From contig FJOG01000020.1 of the NCBI GenBank assembly GCA_900073065.1, positions 1,143,695-1,207,694 of the forward strand: a stretch of DNA of 64,000 nucleotides. Direction: 5' to 3'. The notes beneath the pieces are model-generated. The model saw only the letters and a list, made by a program, of their open reading frames with translations, did not search any database and was not told the origin of the DNA. The position numbers and the translations under genes are program-made. The stretch comes from Phialocephala subalpina (Eukaryota; Ascomycota; Leotiomycetes; Helotiales; Mollisiaceae). Positions 1,245-45,539 of the stretch are shown piece after piece. The first letter of the stretch is position 1; every line of letters starts with the position of its first letter.

Positions 1245-3670
1245 TCAGTCGGTCGTATGGAAGCAATCAATGGTGTTTCGGTTGTGCTTTTCCTTTGAGC
1301 GTTCAGAAATCAGGATCACAGGACTGCTGCTTGGAAGTGGCAAGAGAAAGTCGTCGGGACAAATTGGAAAGAATTGCATTTCGAAGGCGTTGGTGGCAAA
1401 ATCTAATAGAAGCGGCAATGGGGCTGCACAAAACAAGCGCAAGCAGTAATGTTGTACAGTAGTATCTTGAATCAAACAAGGCAATCAGATCCGAGCCAAA
1501 ACATCAAGTCTCAATTTTCAAAGCTGTGATTATAAATGCTCCAAAAATCTGTTGGGAGTCGTCGCCCATCCTAGCCAATGACCTCCAAGCTGACAACAGA
1601 ATACGGCCAGAAAGCCTTCGGACCACGGCGGTTTTATTCCGTTGCATTCAGCCGTGCCCGTACTTCGTATATAAATTTTCTACCGCAAGCTTGCTGCTCT
1701 AGGACGAACAGGAAGGTTGTCTGGCTTTGACGATCATTGGTGATCTTGGAGATGGTTTGGGATAGTGGAAAGCATGTCGCAGAATCGGGCGCAGGTGCGA
1801 TGAGCAACAAAAGATGGTTTTGGTGAGACGGGATGGTGGAGGGGCTTGGGATTGTCATGTGAAGATGGCTTGTGGATAAGCTTGCTACTTTGATATGGAA
1901 TATGTCACTCTTCAGCATCTGTTCGGGTCACTTTTTGAAGTAGGTCAATGGCAAAACACCCATTCGAGGTGTGGGGTTTCAGATAATTTTAGGGTTGAGT
2001 TCAAGTGATGTTGTACTTCAAAGACAAATGTCTCAACGCTTCCCAGCTTTGAGATTGTCGTAGGGAAATATTCCCTATCCTTTCCAGCTTCGAGTTTCTT
2101 CTCGTTTGTTCCCCGCTCAACTTGGCTCCGTATTCCTTTCCTAGACAGCTCTTAGATCCTATCAGTGTTGACCTCTTTGCGGAGCAGCTTACTTAGACCA
2201 TCTTGAAACAGACCTTTCGAAGAAGGACTTGAGATACTCAAGTGGGCAAGCAAATTGCAAGTGATTGTGCGCAGCGAAGGTGGAAAACAAAAGGCGACGT
2301 CGAGTTGCTAGCTATCAGCATAGATCGCAAACCCGGTGTTTTTGGTCAAGATGTCGAAGACGAAGCGAAACTTCTTGAGATGAGTGAGAAGACTTGGTAT
2401 GCCTGCTCTTGGGCACTGAATTATTTGACATTATCCGATTGAGATGTTGATGGTCTTCGAAGAGTAAGGTTGATGAGATGGATGTTGTGGAGGTCAGTTG
2501 TTTGATTTGAGGAGATTATTGAGGATGAAAAGGTATGACAGCACAGGTGCTGGTGAGCGATTAATCGAAGCAGGTGATGTGCAGGTGAGTTTGAGGAAAG
2601 ATGATCTAACGATACGGACCAGACTTGAAGATGAAAATGCAAATGAGGTCGAGGGTATCCGAGATACCGAATTCTAGCAATAATACAGAGGCAGGTTCCA
2701 GTAAAGATGAGCGATTCCGTAGAAATGATGGCTTAGCTGAGGACGATGGGGTGACAGATGACGAGGTAGACGAGATGCAAGTTGACCAGAGGTCGAGCAA
2801 GGAAGCTAACGACGACGAGATGCCACGCGTCTTCGATCTATTAAAAAATTAAAAATTACTGTTCAAAAATAATAATCCAGGCCCCGATACTGGAGGAAAT
2901 TGTTAATAATCTCGGGATGGCGATTTGGGAAAACGTTCTAGGCGCACTCGGGATTGGGAAACGCTGTTCGCTTTAATACAGTTGGCGAGTAAGCAAGAAT
3001 GTTCTGAAAAACGAGGGAGATCATCTCGTTCGAAAATTTTCATGGTTGACGAGAACACTCAAATACCCCGCACCATCAAGAAATTATTGGCTAGGTTGGT
3101 AGATATACTTGTTGATAGAAGATGGGGTTTGAAAATGACACTTGTACTCCTTTCCAAGGCCGGGACTTGATGACCGAATTCAAAAGTGTTCAGCAACATT
3201 CAAGAATCTTGTTGTAACGAACATTGAAAGTGGGAAGCTCGAAAAGAAAAGAAGACCTCGGCATCAAAAGAACACCGTCGGGGAAATTGGGGGAGCTCGC
3301 AAACTTGAACGCGAAGAGAATGAAGTGGTTTGTTTAACAGGTTTGATATGAAGTCAAGTCAAGTCGTTGCATACCCATTGTGCATCCCTACCGCGGCCCT
3401 GCTTGTTGACTAGGGACAGTAGTAGTGACAAGCAAAAGATGGAGGTCAAGCACGTATTCAAGATGAAGCTTAATATACTCTCAAGCACAGATTTGGAGAA
3501 GCCTTTCATTGGAAGCTCAACCTCACTGCTCTGGAGTTGATGAGGTGGGGCCTCGCTTGTTACCTGCGTTTCCCTGCAGCAGCACAAACCAAAAAGAAAA
3601 GAAAAGAAAAAACAAGTACTACATCAGAACAGAGCAAAAAAGAAACGAGGCATCATGAACTCGGGAATTG
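1245..3670. other. Long intergenic stretch, no supported gene
   Basis: About 2.4 kb without a convincing gene. Open frames are short, composition is mixed, and the acidic stretch near 2.62-2.85 kb has no domain. A polypurine run of GAAAA/AAAAG type lies near 3590-3612, just beyond the tRNA terminator. Confidence 0.5.
3636..3641 (-). terminator. Pol III T6 terminator
   Basis: A run of six T residues on the minus strand lies 29 nt beyond the discriminator base of the tRNA-Lys gene. It is the first run of four or more T in that direction, as expected for a Pol III transcription stop. Confidence 0.6.
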
Positions 3671-3679
3671 AGCCCGAGG

Positions 3680-3730
3680 CTGAGAATTTATTAGTTTTGG
3701 GCTTCGGATATCAGAGTTGATTGAACATAC
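3680..3730 (-). other. 51 nt spliceosomal-like intron at the end of the tRNA T-stem
   Basis: It begins GTATGT, contains AAAACTAAT about 10 nt before the end and ends TTCTCAG. It sits between base 64 and base 65; excision gives the final T-stem pair and then acceptor strand CTCGGGC, complementary to GCCCGGG. It has the same length as the neighbouring insert and shares the AAAACTAAT block, but otherwise the two differ. Confidence 0.8.
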
Positions 3731-3739
3731 CGGGGCTCG

Positions 3740-3790
3740 CTACACAGAGAATTAGTTTTCAGTTTTTGAATCTTGAGAATTATTACTTAC
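3740..3790 (-). other. 51 nt spliceosomal-like intron inside the tRNA T-loop
   Basis: It begins GTAAGT (perfect donor), contains ACTAAT 11 nt before the end (branch-like) and ends GTGTAG. It sits exactly between T55 and C56, so excision restores TTCGAGC. Length and signals match the short introns of protein genes in this window rather than tRNA endonuclease introns. It splits the internal box B promoter. Confidence 0.8.
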
Positions 3791-3808
3791 AACCCGCGAC
3801 CTTGAGGT

Positions 3809-3820
3809 TATCTTATAGCT
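3809..3820 (-). other. Canonical 12 nt tRNA intron
   Basis: This lies between base 37 and base 38 of the tRNA-Lys(CUU), the normal site for introns removed by the nuclear tRNA splicing endonuclease. It can be placed as 3820-3809 or shifted by one base because of a repeated A. Confidence 0.75.
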
Positions 3821-3857
3821 TAAGAGCCACACGCTCTACCGATTGAGCTACCCGGGC

Positions 3858-5024
3858 TTCAGGTATTTGATGGATGCAGGAATTGTTATTTAAACATACA
3901 CGACCGTGTTGATGTGGGTTGCCGAAGTGCCTTCGGTTGGAGGAGGATGCCGAAGAAATTTTAAAATTTTCGCCGAAGTGGGCTCCCATTGATCGTGCCC
4001 AACCAAGAAATCTATTATGGTTTCATTGGCAGTACTGATTTAACAGATATCACAGGAATTCGTTCTTCCTCAGCGAAAAGAATAACTTCTTGTGAGGTTA
4101 CGCCTTACTACCGAGCATCAGACCCTCGAGCATCAACCACTACCACAAACTGCGCAACCCGTAGATAATACGCCCCGATATAACTAGTCCGCCATCCTGT
4201 GCCTTGTTCATGTATCCAAGAGCTGAGTCGAATTGAGTTCGTCTGACAAGTCTGCCAGTCTAACTCTCGTGAGTTGGACGATCCTCCTGACGAAAAGAAG
4301 CCCCTCCAATGCACAAGATAGTCAGCTAGCCGTACGCCGAGAGACAATCGATGTCTGCAAACTTCGTAGCAAGGCGTCCGGTGTCTCATAGATAACCACT
4401 CCACACTTGAAGCATTTGAAAAGCAGTGGATGTGGTTGCAGAAGGTTCATCATTCCGAACGCTCAGGAGAGGACTTCAACTCTGAGAAGTAAGTTTCAGC
4501 GCATAAATTCCACAGCAGATGTCCAACAAGCCACATAAAATCGAAAATCGAGAACCCTTGATTGATTTTTCGCGAAGTAGCAAGAGAAAGGGCCGAGGCA
4601 GAGGTAAAAGGTACGGGGAAACTCGAACTGGGTCGGATAATAAGCTTGGAAGGACCTTTGAGGATCTGGGGCCATGATGCTTGACAATATGCTTGGACTT
4701 AAACGTGGATATCAAAAGACGGTATTTCTTTTACAAGGAGTTGATCCTGTACAGTCCCCATATGAACTCGAATCAACTCTTATTCGACTCGTTCAGGAAA
4801 AGTGGCATTTAGAGGACGTAATACATCGACCGAAACTCAAGGGGGAGAGAAAATAAGTTCTCAGCTCGATGGATTGGCATATAAAACTTCTGATTACTTT
4901 ATATTTCGACATGGGTCGGAACAGTAATTGAAGCCTGAGGCAGCCACAAAAGTACATTTCGTTTGATTGAAGCTGCACTGTTGATGCATTAGCATAGCAT
5001 AGGCATTGGCAAACTCTGCTCACC
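3858..5024. other. Intergenic, no supported gene
   Basis: No frame here shows a domain or a plausible exon series. The final ~150 bases before 5025 presumably hold the promoter and leader of the mitoribosomal protein gene. Confidence 0.45.
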
Positions 5025-17659: not shown

Positions 17660-20443
17660 ATGGCCTCTAAGAATGAACCCAAAGGGGAGGGCGACGTCGA
17701 AAATGGCACAATTCGCACCGAGTCGACGACGTACAACTCAGATCTCGAGAAGGCTGAGCCAAGGCTGGTGGCTGAGGGAGCCGTTGGAGAGCCTGATTCG
17801 GACCACGAGGAGGTGGAACAGATGGACGAGGGGCATCTAGACGACCTAGTCAGACAATATGCAAGTTTCTTGTCTGATCACCCAGTGTTCAATGCTAATA
17901 GTTCCACCAGAGCAAAGCGTCCATAAAAGCCGGCCCACGAGAAAAAGGCGACGAGAACGAAATCCGCAGAGTGACCACGAAGTCGAGTACGAGGAGCAGA
18001 ATATCCCGAATAGCCACGAACCTCACATCCAAGAGCAAGAAAGCACGCCTCGCGCCAGCCCCTCTGCCGCTATCAGATCTTGACAATGGCATTGTGGGAT
18101 GGGAATCACAAGACGACCCCGATATGCCCCTCAACTTTCCCGAGAGTCGCAAATGGTTCCTCATATCGTTACTCGCAAGCATTACATTCATCTCGCCCCT
18201 CGCCTCGTCGATGTTTGCCCCCGCAGTATCGTTCATGGACACAACATTCCACAATTCGTCCCTTCTTCTCAGCTCTCTGTCCGTGAGCATTTTCGTCCTT
18301 GGATACGTGATCGGTCCCCTTATATTGGCACCATTGTCTGAGATCTATGGCCGTCGCTATGTTCTCACTGGTGCCAATGTATTCTTCTGTGTCTGGCAAA
18401 TCGGTTGTGCTCTGTCACCTAACCTTTCGGCTTTGATTGTCTTTCGATTTCTGTCTGGAATTGGCGGTTCTGGATGTCTGACTATTGGAGGAGGAGTTAT
18501 TGCTGATCTTTTTCATCCGGATCGACGTGGACTTGCAAGTTCAGTCTACAGTCTAGGCCCGCTCTTTGGACCGGTAGTTGGACCTATATGTGGTGGTTTC
18601 ATTGGCCAGAGGATTGGATGGAGGGTAAGAACAATATTTTTCATTCTAAATCCGCTTGGTGGCTAGTGTTGTCATTTGTGCTTTGCTTCTGTCCACTACG
18701 AGGATTACTGAGTGCTAAATATTATTTCCTAGTGGGTATTCTGGATTCTCCTTATTGCAGGTTCCAGTGTCACAATCGGCATTGAGCTCTTGAACCGAGA
18801 GACGAATCCAAGAGTCCTGATCCATCGAAAAGTCAAACGTAAGCTGCTACTCCTCCATGGGACATTCAGAGCTGATTGAATCCAGGCCTTTCCAAGGAGT
18901 TGAATCGAACCGACCTTCGCAGCTGCTACGATACAAATGGGCTAGTACACTCACCAACTCGCATCCNNNNNNNNNNNNNNNNNNNNNNNNNNNNNNNNNN
19001 NNNNNNNNNNNNNNNNNNNNNNNNNNNNNNNNNNNNNNNNNNNNNNNNNNNNNNNNNNNNNNNNNNNNNNNNNNNNNNNNNNNNNNNNNNNNNNNNNNNN
19101 NNNNNNNNNNNNNNNNNNNNNNNNNNNNNNNNNNNNNNNNNNNNNNNNNNNNNNNNNNNNNNNNNNNNNNNNNNNNNNNNNNNNNNNNNNNNNNNNNNNN
19201 NNNNNNNNNNNNNNNNNNNNNNNNNNNNNNNNNNNNNNNNNNNNNNNNNNNNNNNNNNNNNNNNNNNNNNNNNNNNNNNNNNNNNNNNNNNNNNNNNNNN
19301 NNNNNNNNNNNNNNNNNNNNNNNNNNNNNNNNNNNNNNNNNNNNNNNNNNNNNNNNNNNNNNNNNNNNNNNNNNNNNNNNNNNNNNNNNNNNNNNNNNNN
19401 NNNNNNNNNNNNNNNNNNNNNNNNNNNNNNNNNNNNNNNNNNNNNNNNNNNNNNNNNNNNNNNNNNNNNNNNNNNNNNNNNNNNNNNNNNNNNNNNNNNN
19501 NNNNNNNNNNNNNNNNNNNNNNNNNNNNNNNNNNNNNNNNNNNNNNNNNNNNNNNNNNNNNNNNNNTCCTCAACGGCATCGTCCGCCCACTCAAGATGCT
19601 CTTCCTCTCGCCCATTATCTTCCTTCTCTCGCTATATATGTCAGTAGCTTATGGTCTCCTATACCTGCTATTCACAACCATCACTCAAGTTTTCGTGGAA
19701 ACCTACCATTGGCAACCGGATATTTGTGGTCTCGCATACATTGGTCTCGGAATCGGCTTCTTTGCCGGTCTCGGTGTTGTAGCCAGGATTTCAGATAGCA
19801 CTGTTGTACGGATGACGAAAGCAAACAACGGCGTGTTCGAACCTGAGATGAGATTGCCGGCTTGCATCTTCTTTGCTTGTTGGCTGCCTGTGACGTTCTT
19901 TTGGTACGGATGGGCTGCCGATAAAGCCGTACATGTAAGTTCAGCCCTCTCTTCCCTTAATTACTTTGAATCGAAGCTTATGCCTTAAAGTGGATCGTCC
20001 CAGTCGTAAGTCGACTTCTTCTGAGCCATATTTCCTCTTCTGGATTCTCAATGAGTTCTGTTCGCTGTAATGCCAAATTCAGGCACTTGACTCCCAAACA
20101 ACTCCCAATATATCTGAAAGAAGCAAGCTGATTCGAAGATGTTGCCCTCTAGCTCGGCTTGATCCCCTTCGGCTTCGGCATGATGGGCATCTTCATCCCA
20201 ATCCAAACCTACACCATCGACTCCTTCCCCCAATTCGCAGCTTCCGGAGTCGCAGCCCTAACTGTATCTCGCTCTCTCTTCGGAGCCTTTCTTCCTCTTG
20301 CCGGTCCGAGCATGTATGCGAAACTAGGTTTGGGATGGGGAAATTCTGTGTTGGGATTCATTGCTATTGGCTTGATTCCTGCTCCGTTGTTGATTTATAA
20401 GTTTGGTGAGAGGATTAGGAAGAATCATCCTGTTAAGTTGTGA
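17660..20443 (+). CDS. MFS multidrug transporter, DHA1 12-TM type (interrupted by assembly gap)
   Basis: Exons: 17660-17860, 17911-18624, 18733-18838, 18886-18966 into the gap, then 19567-19934, 19991-20005, 20153-20443. A long acidic/basic cytosolic N-terminus precedes PDMPLNFPESRKWFLISLLA at TM1. PLSEIYGRRYVL is the loop 2-3 signature; FRFLSGIGGSGCLTIGGGVIADLF and [24 protein letters not shown] are the TM4-5 motifs of fungal DHA1 polyamine/drug antiporters. The C-half has GFGMMGIFIPIQTYTID and ends RKNHPVKL. Intron 1 is GC-AG; a 15 nt exon (WIVPV) lies between the last two introns, the second of which is introner-like. About 600 nt of the middle are missing, so integrity cannot be confirmed. 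Confidence 0.85.
17861..17910 (+). other. GC-AG intron, 50 nt
   Basis: The frame requires splicing from RQY to SKAS. The only fitting donor is GCAAGT directly after TAT, with GCTAAT as branch-like site and CCACCAG as acceptor. GC-AG introns are a known minor class in fungi. Confidence 0.7.
18967..19566. other. Assembly gap (600 N)
   Basis: A run of 600 N inside the MFS transporter gene. It removes roughly the central loop and TM6-7. The round length suggests an estimated rather than measured size. Confidence 0.99.
20006..20152 (+). repeat. Introner-like element, family 3, in MFS transporter gene
   Basis: A 147 nt GT-AG intron. Its first bases (gtaagtcgacttct) match the donor end of the GC-AG intron at 58076. 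Its middle (tgagttctgttcgctg) and 3' part (agcaagctgattcgaagatg) match the introns at 60413, 60683 and, on the other strand, 53919-53777. Confidence 0.82.
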
Positions 20444-42442: not shown

Positions 42443-45400
42443 ATGACAGAAAGGCTCGATCACAAGATCGCGACTCCGAGCCAGGCGGCGTATAATCCCA
42501 CAGCTTCGATAACTGCGAGTGATGCGCTTCCTGTGATCGAGTCTGCAGACGAAGAACCCTATACCATCAAGTGCATCTGCGACTACTCCGACGACGACGG
42601 CAACACGATCTATTGCGAATCTTGCGATACTTGGCAACACACCGAGTGCTACTACCCTGGCCGTGTCGAGGATGCTGCGAAAGACGACTTTTCACGTAAC
42701 CAACCTTTTCCTTTGTCTCGCCTCTTTGATCTTGTTGTGTTGGGATCTCACAGCAGGTCTTCTGCCTCTCACTTATTGCTCTTTCCAGAGGATGTCATGC
42801 TAATTTGATGTAGATTTCTGTACGGACTGCAGACCACAACCAGAACTGGACAGGCGGCATGCGACCGAGCGACAGAAACACAATAGGCAGAACAAGATAA
42901 CCAACGACAATGGTGACAAGAAAACGAAACGGCCCCCTTCTAAGAGCCATAAAAAGAAATCGAAGCCGTCGGAGTTACAGGTCAACGGGTTCGTGGATCC
43001 TGACAGTCAAAGAAACGGCAGCCCCCAAGAACACCATACACACACGAAGAAGTTGAAAGGTCATCGATCGAACCAATCCGTTGGATCATCAATCAAACGA
43101 AGTCCACCCTTCAGCTCACGACCCCACCCTCACGCACATCCTCCGAGTCCGGCTCACACACCACCAGACTTGCCCAGCAGCTTCCAAATCCATAACTATT
43201 CCGAAAGGTTTCTCTCCCTATACGAACACGAATACGACCCAACAACGACCAATACCTTCGCAAGTCTGGAAGTGACGAATTCCATGTCACTGTGGCTCCA
43301 TGATCCTGCCAAGTTGGAAAATGATACCAGATGTAGCAAGGAGGACGTCTTCCAAATCTTGAAAGTTCCCGTCGATTCTTTGAAATGGCAAGACGTACGA
43401 CCCGTATCAAAGGATACCGTATGGAACGATACACCTCTTCGTTGGCGATATTTGGTTGCCCCTTCATATACCCAACAATCAGGTCGAATAGCAGAGCTGA
43501 ATGGCTTCGTCGGGTTCCAGGCCAGGTATTGCGAGGATCCTGAGTCTCGCTGGCAGGATGCGCCACACCCCCAGCCTTTCGTATTCTTCCATCAGCGTCT
43601 TCCTCTGTACATCGACACTCGACAGGAGGGATCGATTTGCCGATATGTGCGTCGCAGCTGCCGTGCAAACTGTAGCGTGGAAACCTTCATCGCTCAAAGC
43701 TCAGAATATCATTTTTGGCTTATCAGTGAGCGACAAATCTCTGCCGGAGAACAGCTGACTATCCCATGGGACTTTCGTTTTCCTTTAAATGGCAGCTCTA
43801 GGTATCTTCGTCTGCTAAATCTAGGCGATGAAGACGGATCACACTCCGACAATGCCGAAGCTACTGACGAAGAGTATGAACAGCTCAGCCAAGTCATTCA
43901 GTTGGTCTTGTCTGATCATGGTGGCTGCGCCTGTGATCTTGGGAACGATTGTGCATTTGCGCGCTTTCATCGAAGCTATCATGCGAGATCACATACTCAA
44001 TCTAATGGGGTAAAGACGAAGAGAGGTCGTAAAGTCAAGCAGAATCACGTCTCTCCAACCAGCACAGGACACGCTACCAACAGCCGGGCAGCTAGTGAAG
44101 GGCAAGGGGAAGCATATGATGAGGAAGATAATCGTTCCACCTCTGGTTCAACTCGAAGCAAGCCTCAAAGTCGAGACCTGACTCCTTCCCATGGTCTGAA
44201 TGAAACAAACGGCATTCTGACTGGACCGACTGACCGCGAGAAAAGGAAGCTTGCGGCGTTGGAGGACTCATTTAGGAAGATGGAACAAGGACAGCCACCT
44301 CGAAAGAAGAAACGAGCATCTGACGGATCAAACGTCACTGTACCTCTTCATACCTCGACTCCTCAGTCGAAGCCAAGGCAAAAGTCGGTTGCGCGGATGT
44401 CGATCTCTCAACCTGGAGCATCTACCGTGAACGGCCAGCGAGCACGACAATACACAGATGCGAGTACGTCGAGGCGACAATCGGGCTCACCATTCAGCGC
44501 TGTGTCTCCGACAGGTGGGGCGCCTTCTCCAAGCAATGCTGCTTCACGCAATGGTTCGATGGCGTATCGGTCCCGCCAGGCTTCCGCGAACCCTAAGGCT
44601 GTCTATGCCAACGCGGGAACGCAAACTGAGGAAGTCGAGAATGTCTGGTGGAGTAAACCACCCGCGAAGTCGAAACGAGCAGTGGTACCGCTGGCACAAC
44701 GTCTTCTAAGAAACAGGCGTAAGATACAGGCACAGCAAGATATACAGAATGCTCGACTTCAGGTGGCCTTGGGAGATACTCCTCAGAAGGATCAATCTTC
44801 GCCAACGATTCCCATGGACCTCGACAATCTAGCTCAAGACGACCGGTATCAGACAGAATCTCCTACAGATACCAAGGGACGGAATGTTAGCATCTCATCC
44901 TCGATACCATCTGTTGATACTTTGGCTGCTACGGACACCACTATGACTGATGCACCCACCGTTTTCATCGGGAATTTGATCAAACCTCCACCGCCGCCAT
45001 GGCCTCATCAATTAGCCACGGTTCCTGTACATAAGTCCACTTCCCCGACACAACGGTCGCCGGATCTGCAACTCCAGCTTCCTCCGGCACCTACTTTCCC
45101 AAGTCCAAACATATCTGGACCTCTTTCAGCTTCCGCCACACCTTCATCTGCAAGTGCTTCACTTACACAATCGCCGTTCGGAACAACCTTTCCAGGATCT
45201 TCAATCAATGGTTTAGCTCAACATGCTAGCCCTGTCAAGACCACCAAGAAACTTAGTCTGAGCGACTACAGGGCGGCCAGAATGAAGAAAACCGATACGA
45301 CCAATGCGAACAAACCATCGTCCGGAGGTAGTCCAACCGTTACACCCGCGGTTCTGAAGCCGTCCTTGTCAACAATCGAGGAGGCCAAGGCGCAGGGGAT

Positions 45401-45539
45401 TTTAGATGGATCTGCGATTGTCGATTCGCCTATGGTGGAAAGAGCGACAAATCCCCTCGCAACGGTGGCTGGTCCAACTTCAGAGGCTGGTCCAAAGAAT
45501 AATCTACCTGCTGCAATGGAAGCTAGTAGCACGTTGTAA
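42443..45539 (+). CDS. SET3: Set3-like PHD-finger and SET-domain protein
   Basis: Two exons (42443-42695, 42814-45539) encode 992 residues. A PHD finger spans residues ~44-90: KCICDYSDDDGNTIYCESCD, WQHTECYY, then HFCTDC after the intron, a complete Cys4-His-Cys3 set. A KKTKRPPSKSHKKKSK patch follows. The SET domain (~residues 270-410) has NGFVGFQARY, YIDTRQEGSICRYVRRSCRANC, FIAQSSEYHFWLISERQISAG and EQLTIPWDF; the canonical NHxCxPN and catalytic Tyr motifs are altered, as in yeast Set3, which acts as a histone-binding scaffold of the Set3C deacetylase complex. The long C-terminus is disordered, with a conserved-looking KKLSLSDYRAARMKK. The introner-like intron falls inside the PHD finger. Confidence 0.9.
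42696..42813 (+). repeat. Introner-like element, family 2, in SET3 PHD finger
   Basis: A 118 nt intron with GTAACC donor, GCTAAT branch-like site and GATGTAG acceptor. Its first ~50 bases closely match those of the intron at 50051-50168, also 118 nt, in an unrelated gene (for example tttgt(c/t)tcgcctctt and tgtgttggga). A short hairpin (gcag...ctgc) occupies the middle. Confidence 0.82.

Follow-up and report, generated by a model that had tools for sequence, protein, structure and literature searches.

Transfer RNA genes of a Helotiales fungus are split by introns of the mRNA type

Twenty-eight introns of the mRNA type interrupt 19 tRNA genes, of 14 isoacceptors, in the fungal genome studied here. 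These are very probably working genes that have acquired U2-type spliceosomal introns, are transcribed by Pol III and are processed by the spliceosome. The initial annotation of the window, which is the whole 64,000-nucleotide stretch of DNA that was analysed, had presented one odd tRNA-Lys(CUU) gene split by two such introns. The split gene is real, but it is not a single oddity: three more Lys(CUU) genes and 15 other tRNA genes have the same feature, and the splitting of tRNA genes by mRNA-type introns is genome-wide and more extensive than first stated. Here, we describe what is observed directly, namely the sequence anatomy, the match to intron-free paralogues, the conserved exons with diverged introns, and the promoter, terminator and splice signals. 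From these, we infer that the genes are transcribed, that the introns are removed by the spliceosome, in which order the steps occur and that the mature tRNA is used; for the splicing mechanism our confidence is high.

Results

Anatomy of the tRNA-Lys(CUU) gene

The gene lies on the minus strand of the window and has the following features.

3886..3898, minus strand: TATA-like upstream promoter element TATGTTTAAATAA
3857..3671, minus strand: tRNA-Lys(CUU) gene, whole, read directly from the sequence
3791..3857, minus strand: exon 1, with the acceptor 5' strand, the D arm, the anticodon arm with its 37/38 intron, the T-stem 5' strand and T54-T55
3850..3839, minus strand: A-box-like TAGCTCAATCGG, assigned by eye and unscored
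3820..3809, minus strand: canonical tRNA intron of the endonuclease type, after base 37, 12 nt
3790..3740, minus strand: spliceosomal-type intron 1, 51 nt, GTAAGT...CTAAT...GTAG, in the T loop at 55/56
3755..3751, minus strand: branch-like CTAAT of intron 1
3731..3739, minus strand: exon 2, CGAGCCCCG, 9 nt
3730..3680, minus strand: spliceosomal-type intron 2, 51 nt, GTATGT...CTAAT...TCAG, in the T-stem 3' strand at 64/65
3694..3690, minus strand: branch-like CTAAT of intron 2
3671..3679, minus strand: exon 3, CCTCGGGC and the discriminator T
3664..3674, minus strand: candidate replacement B box GGCTCAATTCC, overlapping the tRNA 3' end and trailer
3636..3641, minus strand: run of six T, probable Pol III terminator

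Reading of the minus strand confirmed the coordinates of the two 51-nt inserts in the T arm and their signals, a donor, a CTAAT motif and a final AG in each. When both are excised, GCGGG and CCCGC enclose the T loop TTCGAGC in a T stem of five pairs, and GCCCGGG faces CTCGGGC in an acceptor stem of seven pairs, one of which is G-U. The intron after base 37, also described at the outset, is indeed present. ARAGORN and Rfam (at gathering score) reported no tRNA in the uncut window, while the four Lys genes of the genome score 106-108 in ARAGORN after excision. Such an agreement had been claimed to lie beyond chance, and this is borne out by two results: ten dinucleotide shuffles of 94 search targets (940 sequences, 6922 combinations) gave no tRNA, and both introns recur, at unchanged sites, in three more Lys loci. 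A U.U mismatch (29:41) in the anticodon stem TGTGG/CCTCA, which is absent from the initial annotation, is found in all four copies. The minimum free energy fold of the naked spliced Lys sequence is not the cloverleaf; that of spliced Cys and Arg(UCU) gives the cloverleaf stems, with two extra pairs in Arg(UCU).

Four copies of the Lys gene

The SET-domain protein encoded at 42804-45539 of the window, the one protein searched, has its best match in Acephala macrosclerotiorum (87% identity) and its next in a Mollisiaceae isolate (77%), so that the fungus most likely belongs to the Mollisiaceae or to a close group of Helotiales. Four Lys(CUU) genes, on four contigs, were found in the genome (68.1 Mb, 119 contigs searched). 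All four have both GT-AG introns, at 55/56 and 64/65, in addition to the 37/38 intron. A DNA search with the spliced tRNA returned four places, each match ending at base 55, and a splice-aware pattern returned the same four. Compared pair by pair, the four genes are 97-100% identical in exon 1 (37/38 intron excluded) and show no difference in exons 2 and 3, whereas identity is 56-74% for intron 1 and 59-74% for intron 2. Some of the other copies are different in the 37/38 intron stretch. The fixed positions and diverged sequences of the introns in these four paralogues support the spliceosomal-type reading. Because ARAGORN missed all four genes in unexcised form, such split genes are overlooked by tRNA finders.

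The possibility of an intact copy elsewhere, or of decayed relatives, had been raised with the first description of the gene. An intact Lys(CUU) copy was found neither by the genome DNA search nor with a pattern of an uninterrupted CUU anticodon arm and B box, and the Lys copies, with their conserved exons, do not look decayed. The anticodon-CUU pattern gave 10 matches (32 for the reversed control), none of which is a tRNA-Lys; one (L013) is a split Leu(AAG).

Search for split tRNA genes

Among 63 candidates scored, 38 matched RF00005. In three of these, Arg(UCU), Thr(CGU) and Met, the first acceptor bases are missing because a GT-AG intron lies at 5/6 or 6/7. When no more than one mismatch is allowed, the consensus of the upstream element, TATAGATTTAAATAA, occurs at 374 sites genome-wide, and its reversed control at 74. 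From the 374, we inspected 100 exact sites, four by eye alone, which were not chosen by intron content. Seventeen lead to a tRNA gene without GT-AG introns, 11 to a split tRNA gene, two are unclear (L098 and L099), and at 70 no tRNA was recognised. The split fraction among the clear tRNA genes of this sample is 11/28.

In the excise-and-score procedure, one or two stretches with GT/GC...AG ends and a branch motif, 40-72 nt long, are removed and the remainder is given to ARAGORN. After excision, 17 of the 94 targets had a best score of at least 105, and 14 were accepted, including the four Lys genes. L069 and L081 also passed this score, but the stretch excised is not part of the tRNA, and we treated both as intact. 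Two loci were left out of the count, L099, which scored 107 after an implausible excision, and L098, an Rfam tRNA (40.9 bits) with a long insert; these two tRNA-like genes are related, and in each a long insert lies in the anticodon region. For several genes, ARAGORN gave a wrong isotype or none (Gln L051 as Lys, Phe L086 and L154 as Ser, Lys as '???'), and anticodons were reassigned by eye. Exact-pattern scans of viral contigs (Lys and Phe patterns) and of prokaryotic contigs gave no match, which, given the make-up of these collections, is uninformative about fungal relatives.

The introns and their signals

The 19 catalogued genes are four Lys(CUU), three Phe and one each of Arg(UCU), Thr(CGU), Met, Cys(GCA), Glu(UUC), Ala(AGC), Ala(CGC), Pro(AGG), Gly(GCC), Gly(CCC), Arg(UCG) and Leu(AAG). 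A 5'-truncated Phe copy (L160) stands outside this number. After excision, 14 of the 19 genes score 106-120 in ARAGORN; the remaining five were assessed from acceptor pairing by eye (Arg(UCU), Thr(CGU), Met) or by paralogue alignment (Phe C119, Leu). The introns, with sites assigned by hand, are located in the acceptor stem (5/6 and 6/7), at 9/10, in the D loop, at 25/26 and 26/27, in the anticodon stem (30/31), and in the variable loop, the T stem and the T loop.

The 28 introns are 47-81 nt long, with a median of 52. Twenty-seven have GT-AG ends and one has GC-AG ends; since these ends were the search criterion throughout the catalogue, the independent part of this result is that exact excision restores the tRNA. 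A YTAAY branch motif is present in 27/28, with 9-14 nt following its A. In 15 of the introns the motif is partly there by construction, because the confirming script required it, but it is also found in 12 of the 13 picked without a branch-site filter. When the interiors of 27 introns were shuffled (2000 trials), YTAAY occurred in 1.97 introns on average and in 8 at most. The 81-nt Leu intron has TTGAT as its only branch-like motif, the acceptors of Arg(UCG) L142 are untypical (AAAG), and the boundary of the second intron of both Ala(CGC) and Arg(UCG) was picked among near-equal options. TTTT, the start of a Pol III terminator, is found in none of the 28 introns; for the 27 tested, 3.49 were expected (P = 0.01).

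As a yardstick for mRNA introns we used one protein-coding gene of the window, the GDI gene, with exons and introns delimited by hand on the basis of its conserved protein. The stretch read has seven introns of 42-177 nt, which are GT-AG, have CTAAC/CTGAC-like motifs and resemble the tRNA introns; TTTT is present in 2/7. Elsewhere in the window, 600 bases of N (18967-19566) break a transporter-like open frame.

A young introner family was looked for and not seen: the 28 introns include no near-identical family. The two introns and exon 2 of the window gene match themselves and, over 38 bases including exon 2, the Lys gene C39, and nothing outside the Lys genes. Among the 28 introns, the 12 best local scores are 22-33, and 300 shuffled pairs reach 22. 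Five of these 12 pairs join Lys introns at corresponding sites, one is made up of the two Arg(UCG) introns, and six are others such as Cys/Glu; an old relatedness among the tRNA introns is possible.

Paralogues without introns

For six isoacceptors, Phe, Ala(AGC), Pro(AGG), Gly(GCC), Leu(AAG) and Arg(UCG), a paralogue without GT-AG introns was found. At 12 junctions, 16-20 of 20 bases agree between the excised split gene and its unsplit paralogue. The agreement is 20 for each of Phe C36, Phe C119, Phe C63 and Leu, 20 and 20 for Ala(AGC), 20 and 19 for Pro, 19 and 19 for Gly(GCC), and 20 and 16 for Arg(UCG). Together with the like introns in 15 further tRNA genes, these matching paralogues lend support to the spliceosomal-type reading.

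Five Phe copies were found, one without such an intron, two with an intron at 25/26, one with an intron in the D loop, and the truncated copy L160, which ends at the 25/26 acceptor. Since the Phe copies differ in the presence and site of the intron, introns have been gained or lost recently. For Cys(GCA), Glu(UUC) and Arg(UCU), a single genome search each found the split copy alone and no intact copy; the same kind of search detected the Phe and Ala(AGC) copies without GT-AG introns. Intact copies that have diverged or lie in assembly gaps would escape these searches, to which Thr(CGU), Met and Gly(CCC) do not belong. The Ala(AGC) search missed the split copy L116, so that copy counts are lower bounds and further split copies may exist.

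These data bear on the explanation that the split genes are dead copies, inactivated by introns or intron-like insertions, with working copies elsewhere. The six isoacceptors with GT-AG-free copies and the truncation of L160 are what it would predict, and the transcription of the split genes is itself deduced from sequence. However, the exons of the Lys genes are conserved while their introns have diverged, promoter elements and terminators are retained, and decayed genes would lack a reason to keep splice and branch signals. In addition, this explanation needs intact copies of Lys(CUU), Cys, Glu(UUC) and Arg(UCU), of which none was found by searches like those that did detect intact Phe and Ala. 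We regard it as very unlikely.

Endonuclease cutting of the introns

A second explanation takes the inserts for ectopic tRNA introns of the archaeal or Cyanidioschyzon type, which the tRNA splicing endonuclease cuts at a bulge-helix-bulge (BHB) and a ligase joins, the GT-AG ends being coincidental. The many intron positions, with up to two introns per gene beside the one at 37/38, recall C. merolae as described in passages of PMC3978253. In a test of the 27 introns other than that of Leu, confined to the strict form of the BHB, the intron of Phe C119 passes, and the second intron of Ala(CGC) has a full central helix. According to the same passages of PMC3978253, many ectopic introns of the Guillardia theta nucleomorph have no defined BHB, and a missing BHB is thus compatible with endonuclease cutting. 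For the set as a whole, though, the strict form is found in 1/27 introns and the full central helix in 2/27, against 0.39 expected; endonuclease cutting fails to explain the set, although Phe C119 passes. Furthermore, the branch motif (27/28 introns, and 12/13 of those picked without the filter) has no role in endonuclease cutting. This explanation is most unlikely, and the failure of 26/27 introns in the strict BHB test favours removal by the spliceosome.

Promoters and terminators

Of the 38 RF00005 matches, 29 have a loose pattern of the TATA-like element no more than 50 nt upstream. Among the remaining nine, the intron of Arg(UCU), Thr(CGU) and Met displaces the element further upstream. 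For the 19 split genes, the loose pattern recognises 13 and the exact element five more; none was recognised for Leu. The U6 and 5S RNA genes of this genome share the TATA element with the tRNA genes. A run of at least five T follows within 50 nt of the gene end in 19/19 catalogued genes. Transcription by Pol III is indicated by the TATA elements and the T-run terminators.

In 13 of the 18 genes scored (all but Leu), no intron interrupts the B box, which has scores of 4.7-19.5. In the Lys genes, it is split by an intron. The sequence GGCTCAATTCC at their 3' end reaches a matrix score of 10.2 in each of the four copies, a value attained at a fraction of 7.9e-5 of the positions in the window; the matrix was built from 29 of the 38 RF00005 matches (intact tRNA), whose own scores are 7.1-19.5. 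In the four copies, the first 20 nt past the tRNA are 95-100% identical and the following 60 nt 48-65%. We take GGCTCAATTCC to be a putative rebuilt B box of the Lys genes. The B box of Glu(UUC) is also split by an intron, and no good substitute was found for it, the best matrix score being 1.7.

In three tRNA-His genes (L172, L173 and L174), whose own B box is unbroken by a GT-AG intron, a second B-box-like sequence (GGTTTGATTCC, GGTTCAATTCC and GGCTCAAGCCC) is located about 30 nt downstream. The Phe genes (L156-L160) have a partly conserved 3' trailer, CTGCGA....GAACA, ahead of the terminator, which is perhaps a hairpin or a second promoter element.

That the same introns are spliced by the spliceosome from a capped Pol II precursor, later trimmed to the tRNA, is extremely unlikely: splicing is normally linked to Pol II and an intron breaks the B box of the Lys and Glu genes, but the TATA element and T-run terminators are common to intact tRNA, U6 and 5S genes, the introns contain no TTTT, the four Lys genes have a candidate substitute B box, and the introns of U6 and rRNA, in the parts of PMC10484740 and PMC8527467 that deal with them, show that Pol II is dispensable.

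Other loci with the upstream element

Several families of RNA genes, which we grouped by eye, have the tRNA/U6 promoter TATAGATTTAAATAA and T-run ends in common. They are the following.

L077, L085, L093, L094, L103, L110, L111, L112
L102, L104, L126
L078, L123, L137
L082, L106, L150
L073, L136, L146
L101, L122
L105, L138, L155
L108, L169

One member of each family (L077, L102, L078, L082, L073, L101, L105 and L108) had no Rfam match, and when 20 promoter-linked loci were compared with Rfam, no names were obtained other than a 5S rRNA and one tRNA. Together, the families look like a large set of uncharted Pol III transcripts. In L133, a promoter-linked gene of a non-tRNA RNA, an intron-like GTTAGT...AAACAG lies between GGCACCA and its complement TGGTGCC; other promoter-linked non-tRNA genes may have introns as well.

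Discussion

For working tRNA genes with spliceosomal introns, the following pathway is proposed. Pol III would transcribe the split genes from the upstream TATA element and the A and B boxes to the T-run terminator, and the 3'-terminal substitute B box would serve it in the Lys genes. The spliceosome would excise the GT-AG introns, upon which the cloverleaf can fold. Where a 37/38 intron is present, the tRNA endonuclease and ligase would take it out as a separate step. Between paralogues that share an isoacceptor, intron gain or loss would be under way at many sites of the tRNA.

The cell probably has to use its mRNA splicing machinery for working tRNAs, apparently indispensable ones included. 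For this Helotiales lineage, we consider it likely that the tRNA repertoire depends on the spliceosome, as Cys(GCA), Lys(CUU), Glu(UUC) and Arg(UCU) have no intact copy found and some precursors would need the endonuclease too, that intron gain is ongoing, and that an internal promoter, once broken, was restored at the gene edge. Two splicing systems appear to meet within one tRNA molecule. If this is true, translation capacity is coupled to the spliceosome, and the spliceosome can presumably handle Pol III RNAs of about 190 nt with a 9-nt internal exon. Paralogues of the same tRNA with no intron, or with introns at two different sites, would make a clean system for the study of intron gain.

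Messenger-type introns are known from the U6 snRNA genes of several fungi. One of them is the U6 gene of fission yeast, as described in part of PMC10484740. In ascomycetes, lichen fungi among them, spliceosomal introns are also known from rDNA (Bhattacharya et al. 2000, as cited in PMC8527467), and PMC8527467 describes that yeast is able to splice lichen rDNA introns out of Pol I transcripts. The initial annotation knew of no tRNA case. Among the matches listed from open-licence PMC full text (preprints and subscription journals lie outside it), no title or start of an abstract reports spliceosomal introns in tRNA genes, and a term search of the tRNA reviews PMC4090602 and PMC4033280 gave no word beginning with 'spliceosom'.

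Like the U6 genes, the split tRNA genes carry short mRNA-type introns in Pol III transcripts. In the same genome, one U6 gene (L019, C51:503875) has such an intron in its 5' part, 55 nt long with GTGAGT...CTAAT...TAG; in six other U6-like copies above the cut-off (L020-L025), no intron was seen by eye. The tRNA hosts differ from U6 in that they comprise 14 isoacceptors with up to two such introns per gene, have their promoter inside the gene, in several cases carry a 37/38 endonuclease intron as well, and have no place in the spliceosome comparable to that of U6. With the ascomycete rDNA introns they share the spliceosomal type and a structural RNA as host that is not made by Pol II; the rDNA host is a Pol I rRNA, while the host here is a Pol III tRNA.

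Ectopic and multiple tRNA introns are reported for C. merolae, the Guillardia theta nucleomorph and Crenarchaeota in the passages of PMC3978253 already cited. As in those organisms, the introns here are found throughout the tRNA, several may occur in one gene, A or B boxes are broken, and an upstream TATA element would be relied upon. In C. merolae and archaea, the ectopic introns are described, in the same source, as BHB introns that the tRNA endonuclease cuts; here, by contrast, the strict BHB is missing in 26/27 tested introns, and splice-site and branch signals are present. The canonical eukaryotic 37/38 intron also exists in many of the split genes, including Lys, and differs from the mRNA-type introns beside it in position, length and signals, and in the separate machinery that would remove it.
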